NCBI GenBank assembly: GCA_003251535.1
Contig: QKFD01000070.1
Location: forward strand, 1 to 64,000
Direction of reading: 5' to 3'
DNA length: 64,000 nucleotides
Source: Chromatiales bacterium
Lineage (GTDB): Bacteria; Pseudomonadota; Gammaproteobacteria; Thiohalomonadales; Thiohalomonadaceae
Shown: positions 2,585 through 49,503 of the stretch, one piece after another
Position numbering within the stretch: the stretch's first letter is position 1
Layout: each line of letters opens with the position of its first letter
The notes under the pieces: model-generated
The model's database searches: none
What the model saw: only the letters and a program-made list of their open reading frames with translations
What the model was told of the DNA's origin: nothing
Position numbers and translations under genes: made by a program

Positions 2585-4288
<1,704 letters not shown>

Positions 4289-4289
4289 G

Positions 4290-4604
4290 TCAGTTCCCCT
4301 CCAGCGGTCCCATCACCGCGCCGTTGAAGCCGTAGACGGTGCGGCTGCCGGCGTAGGCGACCAGGGTCACCTCGCGGCTCTGCCCCGGTTCAAAACGCAC
4401 CGCGGTGCCGGCGGGGATGTCGAGCCGGAAACCGCGGGCGGCGGTGCGGTCAAACTGGAGCGCCGGGTTGGTCTCGGAGAAGTGGTAGTGGGAGCCCACC
4501 TGGATGGGGCGGTCGCCGCTGTTGGCCACTTGGAGAGTGAGCCGTTCACGGCCGGCGTTGAGTTCGATCTCACCCGCCTGCGGGATAATTTCACCTGGAA
4601 TCAT
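4290..4604 (-). CDS. ureB: Urease subunit beta, UreB
   Basis: This is the small structural beta subunit of the (alpha-beta-gamma)3 urease. I place the start at the ATG at 4604 because it gives the family N-terminus [20 protein letters not shown] and a 104-residue protein. A longer frame reaching 4655 would overlap ureA and lacks conservation. Typical segments [14 protein letters not shown] and [10 protein letters not shown] are present. The gap to ureC is one base, so translation is probably coupled. Confidence 0.95.
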
Positions 4605-4614
4605 GGCTCCCCCT

Positions 4615-4917
4615 TCACACAATCGGTTCATGTACGGTGACCAGCTTGGTGCCATCGGGGAAGGTGGCCTCCACCTGCACCTCGCTGATCATCTCCGCCA
4701 CCCCCTCCATCACCTCTTCGCGGGTGAGCAGGGTGCGACCGTAGTCCATCAGCTCCGCCACGGAGCGGCCGTCCCGCGCCCCCTCCAGGATGGCGCCGGA
4801 GATGTAGGCCACCGCCTCCGGGTAGTTGAGTTTGAGGCCGCGGGCGCGGCGCCGCTCCGCCAGCAGGGCGGCGGTGAACAGCAGCAGCTTATCTTTTTCA
4901 CGTGGGGTGAGTTCCAT
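4615..4917 (-). CDS. ureA: Urease subunit gamma, UreA
   Basis: This 100-residue gamma subunit has the standard length. It begins with [20 protein letters not shown] and ends with the conserved VTVHEPIV. The segment [20 protein letters not shown] is the family hallmark. It is the first structural urease gene after ureD. UreA, UreB and UreC are separate genes here, as in most bacteria, not fused as in Helicobacter. Confidence 0.97.
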
Positions 4918-4983
4918 GGCTCGCCTCTTGTTGGTGGTTGTCTTGGGGTGCGGGGCCGCTGGGTGTCTATAGCGCCCGGTGCT

Positions 4984-5814
4984 TCAGGTGCTCCAGATGC
5001 GCGGGCGCAGTGCCGGCAGGCCGATGATAGCGGGCCGCAGCGCCTCCCATACGGGTAGCAGGCAGCGGCGCGCCGCCTCGGCGTCCTGCCCCAGCCAGCG
5101 CACCAGGAGCAGGCCATCCACCAGCGTGGCGGCGGCCACCTCGGCCGGGGTGGGACCGAGGGCGGCCCGCGCCAGGGCCAGCGCCGCCGGGTCGGCCGGG
5201 GTCACCACCAGGGTAGCGGAGGCGGGGTGGCCGCGCAGGCCCGTGGCCGCCGCCAGCAGGGTGGCATCCAGCCGCAGGCGCTCTCTGAGCAGCACCCTCC
5301 CCGCCCGCTCGATGCGCAGGCCGATCTGCGCCTGCCCCTGGGTAAACTGCTCCTGCGCCGCCGGCCGCCCGGCGCAGAGGATCTCCCAACCGATGAAGCG
5401 CGCCCCCTCGGCCAGGGCCAGCGTGGTGCCCATCTGGAGCTGGGCGCCGGGGAAGAGGATGTTCTCCTGCGGCAGCCACTCCAGGGAGGCCCCGGCGGCC
5501 ACGCTGAGCCGCTGGGTCACCCGTGCCCAGGCGCCGGCGCTGCGGTAGAACTTGGTCGCCCCTGGGGTGGTGAGCAGCACGGCGCTGGCGGGTGCGGCGT
5601 CCACCTCGATGGTCAGTTCGTCGCCCCCCACCACACCGCCCGGCGGGTGGAGCAGATAGCAGTGGCAGCTACCATCCCCCGGCAAGAAGGGGCGCTGCAC
5701 CACCAGCGGTCCCCGCTGGCGACGCTCCACCAGACGGGTGGCACCGGCCCGTGGGGCAAAACCGAGGCGCAGCTCGGCGCACCAACCGCGAGGTGTGGCG
5801 AGGGGAGCGATCAC
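4984..5814 (-). CDS. ureD: Urease accessory protein UreD (UreH)
   Basis: UreD binds apo-urease and forms the scaffold and nickel tunnel for UreF and UreG. I choose the GTG at 5814, one base past the urtE stop. It yields 276 residues beginning VIAPLATPRGW, the usual UreD length. The open frame runs on to 5967 inside urtE, but that part does not look like UreD. Family segments LVVQRPFLPGDGSCHCYLLH and HPPGGVVGGDEL are clear. The near-abutment to urtE ties urea uptake to urease assembly in one transcript. Confidence 0.9.
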   Translation of the reverse strand: MIAPLATPRGWCAELRLGFAPRAGATRLVERRQRGPLVVQRPFLPGDGSCHCYLLHPPGGVVGGDELTIEVDAAPASAVLLTTPGATKFYRSAGAWARVTQRLSVAAGASLEWLPQENILFPGAQLQMGTTLALAEGARFIGWEILCAGRPAAQEQFTQGQAQIGLRIERAGRVLLRERLRLDATLLAAATGLRGHPASATLVVTPADPAALALARAALGPTPAEVAAATLVDGLLLVRWLGQDAEAARRCLLPVWEALRPAIIGLPALRPRIWST

Positions 5815-5815
5815 G

Positions 5816-6511
5816 TCACACCGTGAGGTACTGGCGTACCAGGTCGTCGCCGAGTTCCGCCATGGGGCCGCTGGCGACGGCGCTGCCGCGGTCCATGATG
5901 CAGAAGTTATCCCCCACCTTGCGGGCGAAGGGGAGCTTCTGCTCCACCAGCAGCACGGTGAGGCCACGCTCCTGGTTGAGGCGGCGGATGATGTCGCCGA
6001 TCTCCTGCACGATGTTGGGCTGGATCCCCTCGGTGGGCTCGTCGAGGATGAGGAGCTTGGGATCGATCACCAGCGCCCGGCCGATGGCGAGCTGCTGCTG
6101 TTGGCCACCGGAGAGATCACCGCCACGCCGTGTCCGCATCTCTTTGAGTACCGGAAATAGCTCGTAGATGTAGTCCGGGATCTCCTTGGCCTTATCGCGC
6201 CGCGCCGGCAGGCCGATGCGCAGATTCTCCTCCACTGTCAGCAGGGGGAAGATCTGCCGCCCTTGGGGCACGTAGCCGATGCCGAGTCCGGCACGGCGCT
6301 CCGCTGCCAGCTTGGTGAGCCCCTGGCCCTCCAGCTCCATCTGGCCGGACCGGACCGGCAGCAGCCCCATGACACACTGGAGCAGGGTGGTCTTGCCCAC
6401 CCCGTTGCGCCCCATCAGCACGGTACAGCTGCCGGCCGTCACCTCTAGTGAGAGCGCACGCAGGGTGTGGCTGGCGCCGTAGAATTGATCGAGTTGACGG
6501 ATGCTCAGCAT
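5816..6511 (-). CDS. urtE: Urea ABC transporter ATPase UrtE
   Basis: One of two ATPases of the Urt high-affinity urea importer, a branched-chain-amino-acid-type (LivF-like) protein of 231 residues. Walker A is GRNGVGKTT near residue 35, the signature is LSGGQQQQLAIGRAL near 135, and Walker B is LLILDEPTEGIQP. The start ATG at 6511 directly abuts the urtD stop. The two ATPases are expected to form a cytoplasmic heterodimer under the UrtB/UrtC permeases. Confidence 0.95.
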   Translation of the reverse strand: MLSIRQLDQFYGASHTLRALSLEVTAGSCTVLMGRNGVGKTTLLQCVMGLLPVRSGQMELEGQGLTKLAAERRAGLGIGYVPQGRQIFPLLTVEENLRIGLPARRDKAKEIPDYIYELFPVLKEMRTRRGGDLSGGQQQQLAIGRALVIDPKLLILDEPTEGIQPNIVQEIGDIIRRLNQERGLTVLLVEQKLPFARKVGDNFCIMDRGSAVASGPMAELGDDLVRQYLTV

Positions 6512-7359
<848 letters not shown>

Positions 7360-18420: not shown

Positions 18421-18576
18421 GTGCCAAATCAATTTGCTATATTCGTAACCTTTTTTCCACTCCATAGGCGCAGCACCCTGGAGGGGTCATCGAAGCGGTC
18501 ACATTACTCACTCAATCTTGACAGAGATTCACCCGCCAAGGCCCCGCCAAGCACGGCTGTAACATACAATTCGCCT

Positions 18577-20052
18577 GTGCCCACCATCCTCCTCACCACC
18601 TTTAACGCCCGCTATATCCACCCTGCCCTCGGCCTGCGCTCACTCTACGCCAATCTTGGCGAGCTGCGCGCCGAGGCGGCGCTGGTGGAGTTCACCCTTG
18701 CCCTGCCGATCGCCACAGCGGCCGAGCGGCTACTGGCCCAGGCCCCCCGGATCATCGGCATCGGTGTCTATATCTGGAATGTGCGCGAGAGCGCGGCGCT
18801 GGTGGCGGAGCTGCGCCAGCGCGCGCCGGAGGTGAGCCTCGTACTGGGGGGACCGGAGGTGAGCTTCGAGCAGGGGGAGCAACCCATCTGCCAAGCGGCC
18901 GACTATGTGATCGCCGGCCAGGCCGAATACGCCTTTGCCCAGCTCTGCCGCCAGCTGCTGGCCGGTGAGCGGCCCACGGAGCGCTTCATCACTGCGCCGC
19001 CGCCGCCCCTCGCCGACCTCGCCCTCCCCTATGACGACTATAGCGACCAAGACCTGGCAGAGCGCCTCACCTACGTCGAGGCCTCCCGCGGCTGTCCGTT
19101 CAAGTGCGACTTCTGCCTCTCTGCGCTCGACCGCAGCAGCACACCGTTTGATCTAGATCGCTTTCTAACGGCCATGGAGCGGCTACTGGCGCGCGGTGCC
19201 CGCCGCTTCAAGTTTGTTGACCGCACCTTCAACCTCGCCCCCGCCACCGCCCGCCGCATCCTGGAGTTCTTTTTAGATCGACGGGTGCCCGGGCTCTTCC
19301 TCCATTTTGAGGTGGTGCCGGACCGCCTGCCCAGCGCACTACGGGAGCCGCTGGCCCGCTTCCCACCCGGCAGCCTGCAACTGGAGGTGGGGATCCAGAG
19401 CTTCAACCCCCAAGTGCAGCAGCACATCCGGCGCCGACAGGACGACAGCGCCACACAGGCCAATCTGCGCTGGCTACGCCGCCACACCCACGCCCATCTC
19501 CATACCGATCTGATCATCGGCCTGCCAGGGGAGGACCTCGCCTCCTTCGCGGCCGGCTTCGATCGCCTGTGGCAGCTCGATCCGCAGGAGATCCAGGTGG
19601 GCATCCTCAAACGGCTGCGCGGCGCCCCTATCGCCCGCCACTGCCAACCGTTTGAGCTGAGCTTCGACCCGGAGCCCCCCTACCCCATCCGCAGCAGCGC
19701 CCAGATCGACGCCGCCACCATGACCCGCCTCGCCCACTTCGCTCGCTATTGGGAGCTAGTGGCCAACAGTGGACGCTTCCCCCGCACCCTGCGGCGACTC
19801 CTGGGTGACACCCCCTGCGCCCACTTCCTCGCCTTCAGTGATTGGCTATACGCCCACACCGCCCGCACCCACCGCCTCTCCCCCCACCAACTGGCCGAGG
19901 GGCTGTGGGACTACCTCAGCGCCCAAGGCCAGCCAGCCGAGGCAGTGGCGGCCGACCTGCTGGCCGACCATGCCACCATCGCCGATCGCCACCTCTCACC
20001 CCGCCTTAAGGCGTTACGCCGCGAGGGTGGCGCTGCCAGCGCTGGTGTATAG
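18577..20052 (+). CDS. B12-binding-domain radical SAM protein (DUF4080 type)
   Basis: A 491-residue protein starting at the GTG at 18577 (VPTILLTTFNARYIHPALG); upstream residues in the same frame look non-coding. Residues about 1-130 are a cobalamin-binding-like Rossmann domain. A radical SAM domain follows with CPFKCDFC (CX3CX2C) near residue 171, and the C-terminal about 180 residues match the DUF4080 type. Such proteins are widespread but uncharacterised. It is divergent from pstS and 24 bases before a TauE-type gene; neither neighbour reveals the substrate. Confidence 0.85.
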   Translation: MPTILLTTFNARYIHPALGLRSLYANLGELRAEAALVEFTLALPIATAAERLLAQAPRIIGIGVYIWNVRESAALVAELRQRAPEVSLVLGGPEVSFEQGEQPICQAADYVIAGQAEYAFAQLCRQLLAGERPTERFITAPPPPLADLALPYDDYSDQDLAERLTYVEASRGCPFKCDFCLSALDRSSTPFDLDRFLTAMERLLARGARRFKFVDRTFNLAPATARRILEFFLDRRVPGLFLHFEVVPDRLPSALREPLARFPPGSLQLEVGIQSFNPQVQQHIRRRQDDSATQANLRWLRRHTHAHLHTDLIIGLPGEDLASFAAGFDRLWQLDPQEIQVGILKRLRGAPIARHCQPFELSFDPEPPYPIRSSAQIDAATMTRLAHFARYWELVANSGRFPRTLRRLLGDTPCAHFLAFSDWLYAHTARTHRLSPHQLAEGLWDYLSAQGQPAEAVAADLLADHATIADRHLSPRLKALRREGGAASAGV

Positions 20053-41946: not shown

Positions 41947-42503
41947 GTCTGCCGCCGGCTCGGCGCGCGCGCCAGGCCAGGCGACGAAGCCGCCGCCGAC
42001 AGCAGTTGGTGGCGCAGCTGCGGGCCGATCTCGCCCGCGGTGCCCTGCGTCAGGCCAGGGGCTATCTCAATGGCCTCATCGGCAGCTACCCCTATGACTG
42101 CGAACTACGGGCGCTGGCGGGGGAGTGCCTGTTCCGTGCGGGTGAACAGCTGAGTGCCGGTCGCCACTGGTTCCTCTCCGAGCGGGAGGATGCCGATGCC
42201 CAGGCGGCCATCGCCCTCCTCCAGCGCTATGTGGCGGGTGATCCGGTGGAGCTGTTCAAGGAGCTGCGCCTCCACCCGCAGTCGTTCGGGCAGTTTGACT
42301 CCCCCGCCGTGAATGAGCGCCTTGAAGCGTTGCGCCAGCAGCTGCTGGCGCGCCATTTCCCCTTTGCGCCGATCCCCCCGCCAGCGCCGCCCCGGCAGCC
42401 GGCTGGTTGTGGTGTGCTGCTCGCCCTGTTAGGGCTGCTGGGGATAGGGCTGCTGCTCGGGATCTACGCCGGCATCAGGGAGTTGCTGACCTGGTTGGGG
42501 TAA
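41943..42503 (+). CDS. DUF6584-like protein with C-terminal membrane helix
   Basis: A 186-residue protein. The basic N-terminus (RRARQARRRSRRRQQ) leads to a helical segment ARGYLNGLIGSYPYDCELRA then AGRHWFLSE, which resembles DUF6584. A Pro-rich stretch (about 138-150) precedes a membrane helix near 157-178 (LLALLGLLGIGLLLGIYAGI). Function is unknown. Its last 40 bases overlap the 3' end of the convergent radical SAM gene. Confidence 0.65.
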   Translation: MSLPPARRARQARRRSRRRQQLVAQLRADLARGALRQARGYLNGLIGSYPYDCELRALAGECLFRAGEQLSAGRHWFLSEREDADAQAAIALLQRYVAGDPVELFKELRLHPQSFGQFDSPAVNERLEALRQQLLARHFPFAPIPPPAPPRQPAGCGVLLALLGLLGIGLLLGIYAGIRELLTWLG

Positions 42504-44299
42504 GCCGTGATCGCCGCGTGGCGGGTCACTAGCTCAGCGGTACCGCAGACCAGGGTCAGGAAGCTATCGTCGAGGTCTACCAAGAACCCTCGCCGGAGCA
42601 GATTGCCAACATTGGCCGTGATCCCCTCCTGTTTGCGCGGCGTGCGGCACTGCTGGAGCACCGCCAACTCCTCCTCGCCGATCTCGGTCACCGCCTCCAC
42701 GGCGCAGTCGCGGGTATCCCGCACCATCACCCGCCCACCCGCCCGGAAGGCCGCCAGCTCCGCCGGATTGGAGCCCCAGCGGGTATACCACTTGCGCACC
42801 TCGATGTAGAAGCGTGCCAGCAGCTCCGGCATCCGGCGCACCTCGGTCTCGATCTGACCGTTGAAGTTATAGGCCAGCTTCATCAGGTCGATATGCTCCG
42901 GGAACGACTTGAGGTAGCCCTCCATGGGCCTCACCTGCTCGATCCCAAACTGCTCGGGTTCATCAAAGTAGGGGCTAAAGCGCTGGATGTAGATGGGGAT
43001 GATGATGGGGGGATCGAGATGTTGCAGCAGCGGCAGCAGTTCGGCCAGCGCCTCGTAGTCGGCACCGCAATCCTGCGGCAGTGCCACCAGATGGTTCCAT
43101 TTAGCCTCAATCTCCAGCTCACGACAGTTCCGCAGCAGGGCGATGTTTCTGACCGCCGTGGTCCCCTTCTTCATCATCTTCAGATGGCGACTTGATAGCG
43201 ACTCGATACCCGGCCCGAGCGAGTGGATACCGTGGGCCTTCATCTTTTTCAGCTTGTCGAAATCGAGGGTGGGTTTGATCTGATAAAAGATCCGCCCATC
43301 GAACTGGTGGGCGGCGAGGGTATCGAAAAACTCGTCAAAGTAGGTGTTGGGGAAGACCGAGTCACAGGCGTAGTAGTTCTCGTAGTCGGGATAGCGCTGG
43401 CGCAGCTCGCACAACTGCTGCGCCGCCCGCTGCGGGGATTTGGTGCGAAACGCCATGGTGTCGTAGCTGATGCCACAAAACCGGCAACGGTGCTTCACCC
43501 CCCACCAACACCCCCGCGAGGTCTCGAAGTAGAGGAAAGTGGTATCCCGCTCTTCGGGACGGAACTGCGCCAGGAAATCGGTGTAGTCGGGGATATCGAA
43601 GGGATCGAGATCGGTCACCGAAGGGCAGCGGATCAACTTGTCCGTGGGCAGTGGCTGGCCCGCCAAGACCGCCTCACAAAAGGCGGGAAACGCCACATCC
43701 GCCTCACCATCAAACACATAATCGAGACACTCTACCCGCTTCAGCTCCTCCCCCATCTCGCCATAGCAGTTGCTGCCGCCCATGACCACAATCACCTCGG
43801 GAAAGAGCTGCTTCAGCCGCCTGGCCAGGGCCAGCGAGGCGTTGATCTGGGAGTAGAGGCTACTGAAACCCACGATCTTGGGGCGGACCCGCCGCACCTC
43901 GGCGATGAAGCGCTCAAGAAATCCCTCCACACCGTCAACCGCTGCCGTAAAGCCCTGCTCGCTCAGCCCCGCCCGCTTGTTGCCGTAGAGATCGTAGTAG
44001 CGGGCATAGAAGTCGGGGGCCGCTGCCGGCGCCGGCTGCCAGTGGATGGGGGAGCCGTGGGCCGCCTCGGCAAACACCTGCTCCTGATAGAGATCCGCCG
44101 GAGACACCACCGACATCAGCAGCTGATAGAGATCCGTCCCTATCTCCCGCGCATATTGGGCGTTGGCGTAGAGCACCTTGCAGCTGATCCCTTTCTGGGC
44201 CAGGGCGCTCTTTAAGGTCGCCGTCCCCAGGCTGGGGTGGCCCAAGGCGTAGAAGGGGGGAACCACGAGCAGAACCGAGACTGGATCATCATCTTTCAT
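42464..44299 (-). CDS. B12-binding RiPP-maturation radical SAM enzyme
   Basis: A 611-residue protein. Residues about 1-230 are a cobalamin-binding-like domain (LLVVPPFYALGHPSLGTATL, VMGGSNCYGEMGEEL). The radical SAM core has GCWWGVKHRCRFCG (C264, C272, C275), the unusual CX7CX2C spacing of the RiPP-maturation radical SAM protein 1 family, whose members often act as C-methyltransferases on precursor peptides. A C-terminal region of about 110 residues is less defined. It is the last gene of a minus-strand set with a precursor, a SPASM maturase and an S53 peptidase. The target is inferred to be that precursor. Confidence 0.88.
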   Translation of the reverse strand: MKDDDPVSVLLVVPPFYALGHPSLGTATLKSALAQKGISCKVLYANAQYAREIGTDLYQLLMSVVSPADLYQEQVFAEAAHGSPIHWQPAPAAAPDFYARYYDLYGNKRAGLSEQGFTAAVDGVEGFLERFIAEVRRVRPKIVGFSSLYSQINASLALARRLKQLFPEVIVVMGGSNCYGEMGEELKRVECLDYVFDGEADVAFPAFCEAVLAGQPLPTDKLIRCPSVTDLDPFDIPDYTDFLAQFRPEERDTTFLYFETSRGCWWGVKHRCRFCGISYDTMAFRTKSPQRAAQQLCELRQRYPDYENYYACDSVFPNTYFDEFFDTLAAHQFDGRIFYQIKPTLDFDKLKKMKAHGIHSLGPGIESLSSRHLKMMKKGTTAVRNIALLRNCRELEIEAKWNHLVALPQDCGADYEALAELLPLLQHLDPPIIIPIYIQRFSPYFDEPEQFGIEQVRPMEGYLKSFPEHIDLMKLAYNFNGQIETEVRRMPELLARFYIEVRKWYTRWGSNPAELAAFRAGGRVMVRDTRDCAVEAVTEIGEEELAVLQQCRTPRKQEGITANVGNLLRRGFLVDLDDSFLTLVCGTAELVTRHAAITAYPNQVSNSLMPA

Positions 44300-47465: not shown

Positions 47466-47799
47466 CGACCCCTCCTGCCGCTGCTATTCGCCTTTGGCAC
47501 CCCACCTGGCGAGGGCACTCAAACGGGTCAACAAATGCGTCCCTACCGCTCTGTCAACGGCGCCATGAGGTCCATGCACGAGGCGCCCATTTACCCTGGG
47601 GCAGGGACCAGCCACGCCCCCGCACACCCGTTCAGCGGTCCCTCAAAGTGAGCGCAACACGCCCTGAACAGACGCCCCAAAGAGCGGTTCACTCTTGGTT
47701 GGCCAAGCCGGAAGTGCTGGCGTCCCCAAGAGACAGGACGCCAGCGCGCTGGTTATAACTCGCAGGAGTTAATCCAAGCGATCAGCCCACCACGGATCA
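47466..47799. other. Gap between RiPP precursor and maturase genes
   Basis: No second precursor gene with a good ribosome site was found in this gap. It carries the stem-loop at 47716-47745. The rest shows no recognised feature. Confidence 0.45.
47716..47745 (-). terminator. Stem-loop downstream of the RiPP precursor gene
   Basis: Perfect 10-bp arms GCTGGCGTCC and GGACGCCAGC with a 10-base loop, 54 bases after the precursor stop. No U-tract follows. Such hairpins often protect the precursor mRNA or limit read-through so that precursor exceeds enzyme. Confidence 0.5.
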
Positions 47800-47973
47800 T
47801 CAATCCGCGATACAGACAGCGCAACGGGGCTCAACAGACTTGCCCGCATCGGCCGATGAGAGATACCGCGCCAGATCAGCCAACAGCTGTTCCGGCGTGG
47901 CATTGGAGCCCACCCGGGCCCCCTCAGGCGCCGTAATTTTCAGAGTTTTGTCATCTACTTTTTCAACTTTCAT
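47800..47973 (-). CDS. Candidate RiPP precursor peptide, 57 residues
   Basis: A small gene starting at the ATG at 47973 with GAGGAAAGG seven bases before it, ending at TGA 47800-47802. The product begins MKVEKVDDKTLKITAPEGAR, continues with a predicted amphipathic helix TPEQLLADLARYLSSADAGK, and ends SVEPRCAVCIAD. The polar leader, the helix, and the short Cys-containing C-terminus (CAVC, CX2C) fit a ribosomally made, post-translationally modified peptide. The next three genes on the same strand encode two radical SAM enzymes and a peptidase. The family is not one I recognise. The identity is inferred from architecture and context. Confidence 0.75.
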   Translation of the reverse strand: MKVEKVDDKTLKITAPEGARVGSNATPEQLLADLARYLSSADAGKSVEPRCAVCIAD

Positions 47974-48060
47974 CTGCCTTTCCTCGCAGCTGCAATTTAA
48001 AGAGTCCTATTCACATACCCGACAGCGCAATCCATGACTCACACGCCACCAGGCACGCAA

Positions 48061-48089
48061 AATGTGGGCGACGCGGCCCCCATTGTCAA
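48061..48089 (-). promoter_or_regulatory. Candidate promoter of the RiPP cluster
   Basis: On the minus strand TTGACA (48089-48084), a 17-base spacer, then CACATT (48066-48061). The -35 is perfect and the -10 weak. It would give a leader of about 80 bases before the precursor gene. Confidence 0.4.
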
Positions 48090-48470
48090 CTCACTGAACA
48101 GCACATTAAACAAAATTAAATCAGGGACAGAATATTAAAAATAACCCACTTCAAGACTAAATATATATTTTCTTATTTGGGGCCGGTTCTTTATTGTTCT
48201 TCGGCTGACCGCTGCCGGCTCCTCTTTTGTCCTGGCGGCGTTGCCCCTCGGTCCTCGGGATACGTGGGCGCATTGTCCGGTGGCGAGATGCAGCATCCGC
48301 GAGTTGCCGCGCCATCCGGCGCTGTGTGGGCAATAGAGCCGCGCGGCAGGCATCACCGACAACGCATGGATGGGGCATAGATCATCAAATGATCTAATCT
48401 TCCAAGCGTCGCTAACGCCCCGTGACCCCGCCGCCTGCACGACCATTGGGTCCACCGATGACCATTGGAG

Positions 48471-48488
48471 GGGTGGGCAGACCCACCC
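48471..48488 (-). terminator. Stem-loop after the ferredoxin reductase gene
   Basis: GGGTGGG-CAGA-CCCACCC, a 7-bp GC stem with a 4-base loop, about 47 bases after the stop at 48535. No U-tract. Confidence 0.4.
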
Positions 48489-48534
48489 TCTCCCGCCGCC
48501 CAATTGAGCGGTCATGGAGAGCGAGTGGGGGGGC

Positions 48535-49503
48535 CTAAGGGCGGGAGATGGCGAGTGGCAGGGTGAAGAGTCGGCCGGCGGGTAGACCGGCCTGGAGGGC
48601 AGCGGCGCTCACCGCCGCCGCCACCGACTCGCTGGCGGCCAGGTAGAGATCGCTGTTGGCCAGCTGGGGCACGAGGGTTGGCAATTGCACTAATTGCAGA
48701 GACCCCACGCCGGGGTCGAGGGGTAGGTAGGTGAAGTCATCCAACGCATCGACTAGGGCCCGGCACCAGTTGTCCAAATAGCGGGCATCGGGTGGTGTCA
48801 GCCAGACCAGGGTGATGGGTTGTGGCAGCTCTAAGGCGAGGGTGTGTTCAATGAGGCTCTTGACCACGGCCAACCCGCTCCCCTCGGCCAGGAACAGCAG
48901 GGGCCGGGAGGAGTGCTCATCCAACCCCACCTGCCCCTCTGGCCCAGTGATTTGTACACTACGCGCCCCCTTCTCCAGGGCCGCCACAAAGGGATCACCC
49001 GCTAACCGTTCCAGATGGAACTCCAAGATCATCCCATTACACGGGCAACTGGCCACAGGGAGGCTCCGTTGTAACCCCTCTGGCAGGGTGAGGGTGACGC
49101 TCTGGCCGGCCCGGAAGCGCAGGGTGCGGGTACGTGGCGTGCGCAGCTGTAGCAGCAGGTGGTGGGGCGTGGGCTGCTGTAGATGGGCGATCCGCGCCTC
49201 GATCTGCTGATGCGGGATCTCGGCTGCGGCATCCACCAGCTCCAAGGAGAGATCGCTGGCGGCAGTGGCGGAACAGAGGAGCAGGATCCCCTCGATCCGC
49301 TCCGCCTCGCTGAATCGGTAGTCGTGGAAACGGCTGGGGCCCAGCCCGCCCTCGATCAGGCGGGCCTTACAGGCACCACAGGTCCCACTATTACAGTTGT
49401 AGGGTACCGCCACCCCGGAACGTAGGGCGCCCTCCAGCAGGCTCTCCTGCTCCTCGACCTGGAAGCTGGCACCGGTAGGCAATAGCCGAACTAGGTGGCT
49501 CAC
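48535..49503 (-). CDS. 2Fe-2S ferredoxin / FAD-NAD(P)H reductase (CDP-6-deoxyglucoseen reductase-like)
   Basis: A 322-residue electron-transfer protein. The N-terminal plant-type 2Fe-2S domain has YNCNSGTCGACKARL and a later Cys in LLLCSA. It is followed by an FAD-binding beta-barrel and an NAD(P)-binding domain (PLLFLAEGSGLAVVKSLIEH). It should pass electrons from NAD(P)H to a partner oxygenase or dehydratase. The FAD motif is RSLPVAS instead of the usual RXYS, which is atypical. The partner is not in the window. The upstream gene is a small HTH protein, 12 bases away. Confidence 0.88.
   Translation of the reverse strand: MSHLVRLLPTGASFQVEEQESLLEGALRSGVAVPYNCNSGTCGACKARLIEGGLGPSRFHDYRFSEAERIEGILLLCSATAASDLSLELVDAAAEIPHQQIEARIAHLQQPTPHHLLLQLRTPRTRTLRFRAGQSVTLTLPEGLQRSLPVASCPCNGMILEFHLERLAGDPFVAALEKGARSVQITGPEGQVGLDEHSSRPLLFLAEGSGLAVVKSLIEHTLALELPQPITLVWLTPPDARYLDNWCRALVDALDDFTYLPLDPGVGSLQLVQLPTLVPQLANSDLYLAASESVAAAVSAAALQAGLPAGRLFTLPLAISRP

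Follow-up and report, generated by a model that had tools for sequence, protein, structure and literature searches.

A 57-residue open reading frame in the stretch analysed here (64,000 nucleotides of contig QKFD01000070.1 from a Chromatiales bacterium; hereafter the window) very probably encodes the RiPP precursor for an adjoining radical SAM/SPASM maturase, because the distant bacterium Azospirillum picis has an orthologue with an identical tail in a matching four-gene cluster. We consider it reasonably likely that the four genes together make a very small RiPP in the way set out below, for which we infer the chemical steps and the cut site.

The putative precursor gene and its cluster

The first-pass annotation of the window had described a hidden 57-residue gene with a strong ribosome site as the first gene of a radical SAM operon. 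We found this frame on the minus strand, which the annotation had left unstated, with an ATG start (translation, MKVEKVDDKTLKITAPEGARVGSNATPEQLLADLARYLSSADAGKSVEPRCAVCIAD) and a ribosome-site-like stretch, AGGAAAGG, directly 5' of it. It is present in one copy in its own genome. A SPASM maturase gene follows downstream on the same strand, and is itself followed by two genes on which the annotation was silent here; the full order is precursor, RRE-bearing SPASM maturase, kumamolisin-like S53 peptidase and B12 radical SAM enzyme (Table 1), with intergenic gaps of 334, 85 and 75 bp. The G+C content across the cluster is 0.60-0.66, close to that of its surroundings.

Table 1. Cluster features and their positions in the window
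Feature	Position	Strand	Basis
RiPP precursor gene (very probable), 57 aa	47800..47973	minus	ORF; A. picis (L067) orthologue; pN/pS and codon-position pattern; core/leader contrast
RNA hairpin, stem GCUGGCGUCC...GGACGCCAGC, no U-tract	47700..47802	minus	fold z -2.9
Radical SAM/SPASM maturase, 461 aa	46080..47465	minus	family scans, alignments, predicted structure, fold matches
S53 (kumamolisin-like) serine-carboxyl peptidase with pro-kumamolisin domain, 539 aa	44375..45994	minus	PF09286, kumamolisin match
B12-binding radical SAM enzyme, 611 aa, TIGR03975 (RiPP maturation radical SAM C-methyltransferase)	42464..44299	minus	505 bits

The window contains one ATG-initiated frame of 40-80 aa that combines a ribosome-like site with a CX2C in its last nine residues. 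Fetched loci above 8 kb, which total 1.59 Mb, contain 11 such frames, or 0.44 per 64 kb, so the bare pattern carries little weight alone and conservation is the real test. A homologous small ORF beside an orthologous maturase and purifying selection on the frame were the checks that the annotation had proposed, and both were seen when we ran them. The A. picis orthologue (L067:7652-7822) is 63% identical across the full 57 residues (E 8e-22 in a search of that locus). Between the two genes, pN is 0.233 and pS 0.759, the latter saturated, so the dN/dS ratio is left out; codon positions 1, 2 and 3 are identical at 36, 46 and 24 of 56 codons, respectively. The frame is under purifying selection, in the pattern of a protein-coding frame.

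All four genes occur in A. picis in the same order, at identities of 63% (precursor), 57% (maturase), 57.5% (S53 peptidase) and 63% (B12 enzyme). This is the one complete orthologous cluster found; a partial one, again with a small gene conserved beside the modifying enzyme, is present in a Sphingomonadaceae lichen MAG (L068). The S53 and B12 genes are absent near the maturase on that contig, which makes the precursor-maturase pair seem the minimal unit; a partial S53 gene lies on another contig of the MAG, and the B12 enzyme had no match anywhere in it, although the MAG may be incomplete.

We also weighed whether the ORF might be a short regulatory or accessory protein, such as a maturase chaperone or an inhibitor of the S53 enzyme. 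It has no match in Pfam, NCBIfam or PHROGs, and peptide inhibitors of S53 enzymes do occur. Conservation is focused on its tail, however, and Cys-X2-Asp is common to it and substrates of related maturases; the gene takes first place before an RRE-bearing SPASM enzyme and is present in L068 without an adjacent S53 gene. These features make an accessory role very improbable, and we treat the ORF as a precursor in what follows.

In each of the three loci, the precursor stop codon is closely followed by a strong hairpin (z -2.9 in the window, -1.8 in L067 and -2.9 in L068). We found no terminator-like site on the minus strand at the hairpin, no Rfam family at the cluster and no sigma-70-like promoter in 47500-48540. 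The hairpin is possibly an attenuator or mRNA stabiliser between the precursor and enzyme genes, and could allow more precursor than enzyme to be produced. Upstream, an ORF for a [2Fe-2S] ferredoxin-type reductase (48535-49503, minus strand) could feed electrons to radical SAM enzymes; it was dropped as an operon member, lying ~560 bp away and having no match in L067. Elsewhere in the window, an Rfam match to 5_ureB_sRNA (3855-4137, plus strand, 128.8 bits) is antisense to a urease alpha-subunit-like ORF (2585-4288, minus strand), and may reflect just conserved coding sequence.

The SPASM maturase, S53 peptidase and B12 enzyme

The maturase comprises an N-terminal RRE-like domain (residues ~1-95), a CX3CX2C motif (C109, C113, C116) and seven SPASM cysteines (C347, C366, C406, C409, C415, C419, C433), and all of these cysteines are invariant in 55 aligned sequences. 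Its scores of 227.7 bits against TIGR04463 and 96.9 against PapB (NF047865) do not reach the respective cut-offs of 525 and 340, and it is also under those of the other peptide-maturase equivalogs shown; it lies so far beneath the TIGR04463 and PapB cut-offs that its chemistry is not readable from a family name. In a tree of the 55 sequences, the window maturase forms a 100/100 clade on a long branch with those of L067 and L068.

The predicted structure of the maturase (pLDDT 89.8) matched the folds of anSME, CteB and TigE. Matches over the whole length, including the N-terminal domain, were to CteB (5wgg/5why, Z 27.9/27.1) and TigE (8vpo, Z 24.1), and the best Foldseek match was CteB, in an entry titled sactipeptide thioether formation. 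When the N-terminal domain was folded alone (residues 5-100, pLDDT 88.1), it matched TigE (Z 8.8), the PbtF RRE (6.2), TbiB1 (6.1), lasso B1 (6.0) and MccB (5.9), with Foldseek E-values that are modest (best 4.7e-3). These models point to an RRE-like fold for the domain, which would bind the leader.

TigE is thus the closest whole-length match for the fold of the N-terminal domain and among the best for the whole model, and its chemistry is not known to be thioether formation; CX2C, the spacing of the cysteines in the window precursor, is a common metal-binding pattern. Both points would suit a maturase that leaves sulphur alone, carrying out for example cyclopropylation, C-C bond formation or epimerisation on a peptide whose cysteines bind metal or stay free. 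A fold match shows no function, however; the family neighbourhood of the maturase (TIGR04463, CefB, Clo7bot, PapB) has Cys-rich substrates, and the constant motif of the precursor tail is CX2D, not CX2C. We consider such sulphur-sparing chemistry unlikely, and return below to a thioether.

The S53 protein aligns with kumamolisin (1t1e) over residues 16-534 (E 6.5e-108) with the E/D/D/S positions kept. Its motifs GEVVMDIEVA, AAGDDGA and GTSAVAP, which are intact in L067 as well, hold what we take to be the Ser-Glu-Asp catalytic residues and the oxyanion Asp; the solved 1t1e chain reads Ala at the Ser position, presumably an engineered mutation. No obvious hydrophobic signal was seen by eye at the N-terminus of the protein. 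We regard it as a likely candidate for the leader peptidase. The B12 enzyme exceeds the TIGR03975 cut-off of 281.85 bits and also matches PF02310 and PF04055. At 18421-20052 on its plus strand, the window has another B12-type radical SAM ORF, at most 543 aa long; it carries a CX3CX2C motif (RGCPFKCDFC) and is distantly similar to the cluster enzyme (~32-37% over a part).

The precursor tail and the chemistry proposed for it

The precursor can be divided into a leader (~residues 1-48) and a core of approximately RCAVCIAD (residues 49/50-57) that closes on a terminal CX2D, C54-I-A-D57. A leader followed by a very short core had been anticipated by the first-pass annotation, and we likewise put the core at ~8-10 residues. 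The tail PRCAVCIAD is identical in the window and A. picis at 9/9 positions, compared to 27/47 in the leader (Fisher p 0.019, one sequence pair), a suggestive sign, from that single pair of sequences, that the core is more conserved than the leader.

In L068, a 161-residue ORF (L068:6244-6729, plus strand) lies directly upstream of the maturase gene. The whole precursor aligns with the last 62 residues of this ORF, in the pattern EK...L..T.P.G...G....E...L..DL....S..A...CI.D, and the tail of the ORF, CVGVLGPICIID, ends in CIID. A profile built from the window and A. picis precursors ranked this ORF (E 0.025) as the top match after the copies of its own inputs, among the ORFs of 150 sequences. 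The score is weak alone, but together with the position of the ORF it makes a persuasive sequence-based case for a precursor homologue. The ORF has ~100 extra N-terminal residues, including a hydrophobic stretch, ahead of the homologous leader.

The annotation had taken the Cys pair of the tail as the natural target of the SPASM enzyme. The cysteines are there, but their spacing is not kept: CX2C in the window and L067 gives way to CX7C in L068, whereas all three end in Cys-X2-Asp. A Cys-Xn-Asp/Glu pair, the criterion for ranthipeptide substrates, is accordingly present as CIAD in the window and L067 and as CIID in L068.

We next looked at the substrates of related enzymes. The nearest named maturases, which are TIGR04463/CefB-like, adjoin long Cys-rich precursors, and several also adjoin a TIGR03975 enzyme. 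Of 20 loci examined, 8 had an ORF in which a Cys-Cys spacing of five occurs four times or more; L014, which fails that filter and whose ORF was already known, was joined to them by hand, and the other 11 were unused. In the Cys-rich parts of the resulting nine precursors, 86 of 111 Asp residues stand at Cys+3, compared to 2, 1, 0, 5 and 0 at Cys+1, +2, +4, +5 and +6; another count, 46 at Cys+8, reflects the repeat of five. Asp falls almost only at Cys+3 in the Cys-every-fifth precursors of L005, L014, L015, L071, L077, L079, L105 and L108, while that of L094 is the exception among the nine, with zero Asp there. These sequence counts suggest Cys-Asp links across the TIGR04463/CefB group, L094 excepted. 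The accessible part of PMC9413430 describes PapB as joining Cys to Asp in CX3D and accepting Cys-Xn-Asp with n of 0-6.

A thioether of PapB/ranthipeptide type between Cys54 and Asp57 is favoured by the constancy of the terminal Cys-X2-Asp, set against the change from CX2C to CX7C in L068, and by the concentration of Asp at Cys+3 in related precursors; for this particular bond we would call the matter evenly balanced. The same two observations count against a sactipeptide-type thioether, in which sulphur would be joined to an alpha-carbon and Cys51 and Cys54 would both be donors in a small bicyclic peptide, since the Asp enrichment points to an Asp partner and the motif that stays in L068 is CX2D. 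Two cysteines do occur in all three tails, SPASM maturases of this fold class form both alpha and non-alpha thioethers, and the top Foldseek match, CteB, bears a sactipeptide title; a bicyclic sactipeptide nonetheless seems to us quite improbable.

In the pathway built around a Cys54-Asp57 thioether, the RRE-like domain of the SPASM enzyme would first bind the conserved leader. The enzyme would then tie Cys54 to the C-terminal Asp57 by the PapB/ranthipeptide-type thioether, with Cys51 left free or engaged in a second link. The TIGR03975 B12 enzyme would C-methylate a core residue, for which Val53, Ile55 or an Ala are candidates, and the kumamolisin-like S53 peptidase would cut near Pro49-Arg50, freeing ~8 residues.

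Distribution, possible role and relation to known systems

Our contig scan, with one genome per species, confirmed 413 relatives and retained the top 80 matches (79 loci). Among these 79 loci, maturase identity to the window exceeded 33% in L067 (57%) and L068 (41%) only, the rest being at 32% and under, and by this measure the cluster family is rare; as a genome must contain one of two short peptide patterns for the scan to reach it, more members may exist. Overlapping sets of genomes were also covered. The maturase was found in its own genome only among 144 relatives (0/143 others) and among 369 genomes of the class (0/368 others), and in A. picis only among 194 relatives of that genome (0/193 others). 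Among 197 relatives of the L068 genome, it was found in L068 itself and in one other at 31%, while among 398 phylum genomes five matched: its own and four at 26-34%. The precursor alone was likewise found in its own genome only among the 144 relatives. That two such distant hosts share the cluster points to horizontal transfer.

Several candidates for further occurrences were set aside. The one plasmid match to the precursor (E 0.7) lies inside an aldehyde dehydrogenase gene and was taken as chance. Among viral contigs, a search with the maturase sequence by itself gave no match, and searches with alignments gave only distant SPASM proteins. In L006 (Methylovirgula), which stands weakly beside the clade in the tree (98/93), no similar precursor was among the small ORFs listed nearby. 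The accessible part of PMC6423787 places the SPASM and sedolisin genes of a Red Sea fosmid on different scaffolds of an archaeal insert. The profile found no homologous precursor below E 1 in the neighbourhood of a B12 enzyme on a Paracoccus denitrificans plasmid (L152). That plasmid carries, at 4550-4942 on the plus strand, a 130-aa ORF with repeated C-x-x-x-Q-C elements, and directly downstream, at 4962-6836 on the same strand, a TIGR03975-like B12 radical SAM gene; the gene table of the record annotates nothing at either place.

The tail might instead be the source of a small intracellular cofactor or signal, like PQQ or mycofactocin, and not of an exported antimicrobial. An identical core in two very distant hosts, beside a drifting leader, would be in keeping with such a role, as would one precursor copy per genome and the lack of a transporter gene among the cluster ORFs read. 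The sporadic occurrence, with 0/143 other relatives and 0/368 other class members, is unlike that of a housekeeping cofactor, however, and we identified no enzyme dedicated to using the product and, in the cluster, no transporter; we hold a cofactor or signal role to be doubtful, if conceivable. The fullest version, an ultra-small radical-SAM product with a CX2D ring on its C-terminal Asp, C-methylated by the B12 enzyme, released by the S53 peptidase in the cytoplasm and serving as an intracellular cofactor or signal, would explain why the core is unchanged between distant bacteria, and we offer it as an unlikely but specific conjecture.

With the core nearly fixed in two distant hosts, one may ask if certain radical-SAM peptides serve as cofactors or signals. 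Two genomes are available in which to seek the product, including that of the named strain A. picis IMMIB TAR-3. Relatives of the SPASM enzyme act on proteins containing dozens of cysteines, and the single CX2D core of ~8 residues would offer this enzyme a minimal substrate that can be tested; the cluster also adds a precursor family outside those of Pfam, NCBIfam and PHROGs.

By score, the closest maturase family is TIGR04463/CefB (NF038107), whose systems share Cys-X2-Asp in the substrate and, in Methylomagnum and other loci, the pairing of a SPASM enzyme with a TIGR03975 B12 enzyme. The window maturase nevertheless scores under the cut-off and belongs to its own 100/100 clade with L067 and L068; its precursor has 57 aa and one terminal CX2D, compared to 178-834 aa and 15-44 Cys in a repeat region, and the cluster adds an S53 peptidase. 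CteB and TigE share the whole-length fold of the maturase, but at 14-18% identity and with other precursors.

PqqA/PqqE and mycofactocin systems combine a tiny core at or near the precursor end with a SPASM enzyme and a separate protease, M16 or creatininase-like. The window cluster, in which no transporter was seen, resembles them in these three respects, while its protease is S53 and its core CX2D. Kumamolisin is matched over its full length, prodomain included, but the S53 gene of the window lies within a RiPP cluster. Such a peptidase would tie S53 serine-carboxyl peptidases to RiPP maturation: S53, sedolisin and kumamolisin have no mention in the main text of the RiPP protease review PMC10885120, and we found no paper that brings together radical SAM, kumamolisin and RiPP, although the subscription literature, including the radical-SAM RiPP atlas, could mention the combination.

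PapB/ranthipeptide systems are alike in that a SPASM maturase acts on Cys-Xn-Asp, as the accessible part of PMC9413430 describes, and NF047865 is among the families matched by the window maturase. They differ in that PapA has six CX3D/E motifs (same source and part), whereas the window precursor has one CX2D at its C-terminal end, and in that the window cluster adds a B12 enzyme and an S53 peptidase to a maturase under the PapB cut-off. Taken together, these comparisons place the cluster among radical-SAM RiPP systems, a known kind, and suggest that what is new is its precursor family, its single terminal CX2D core and its S53 partner.
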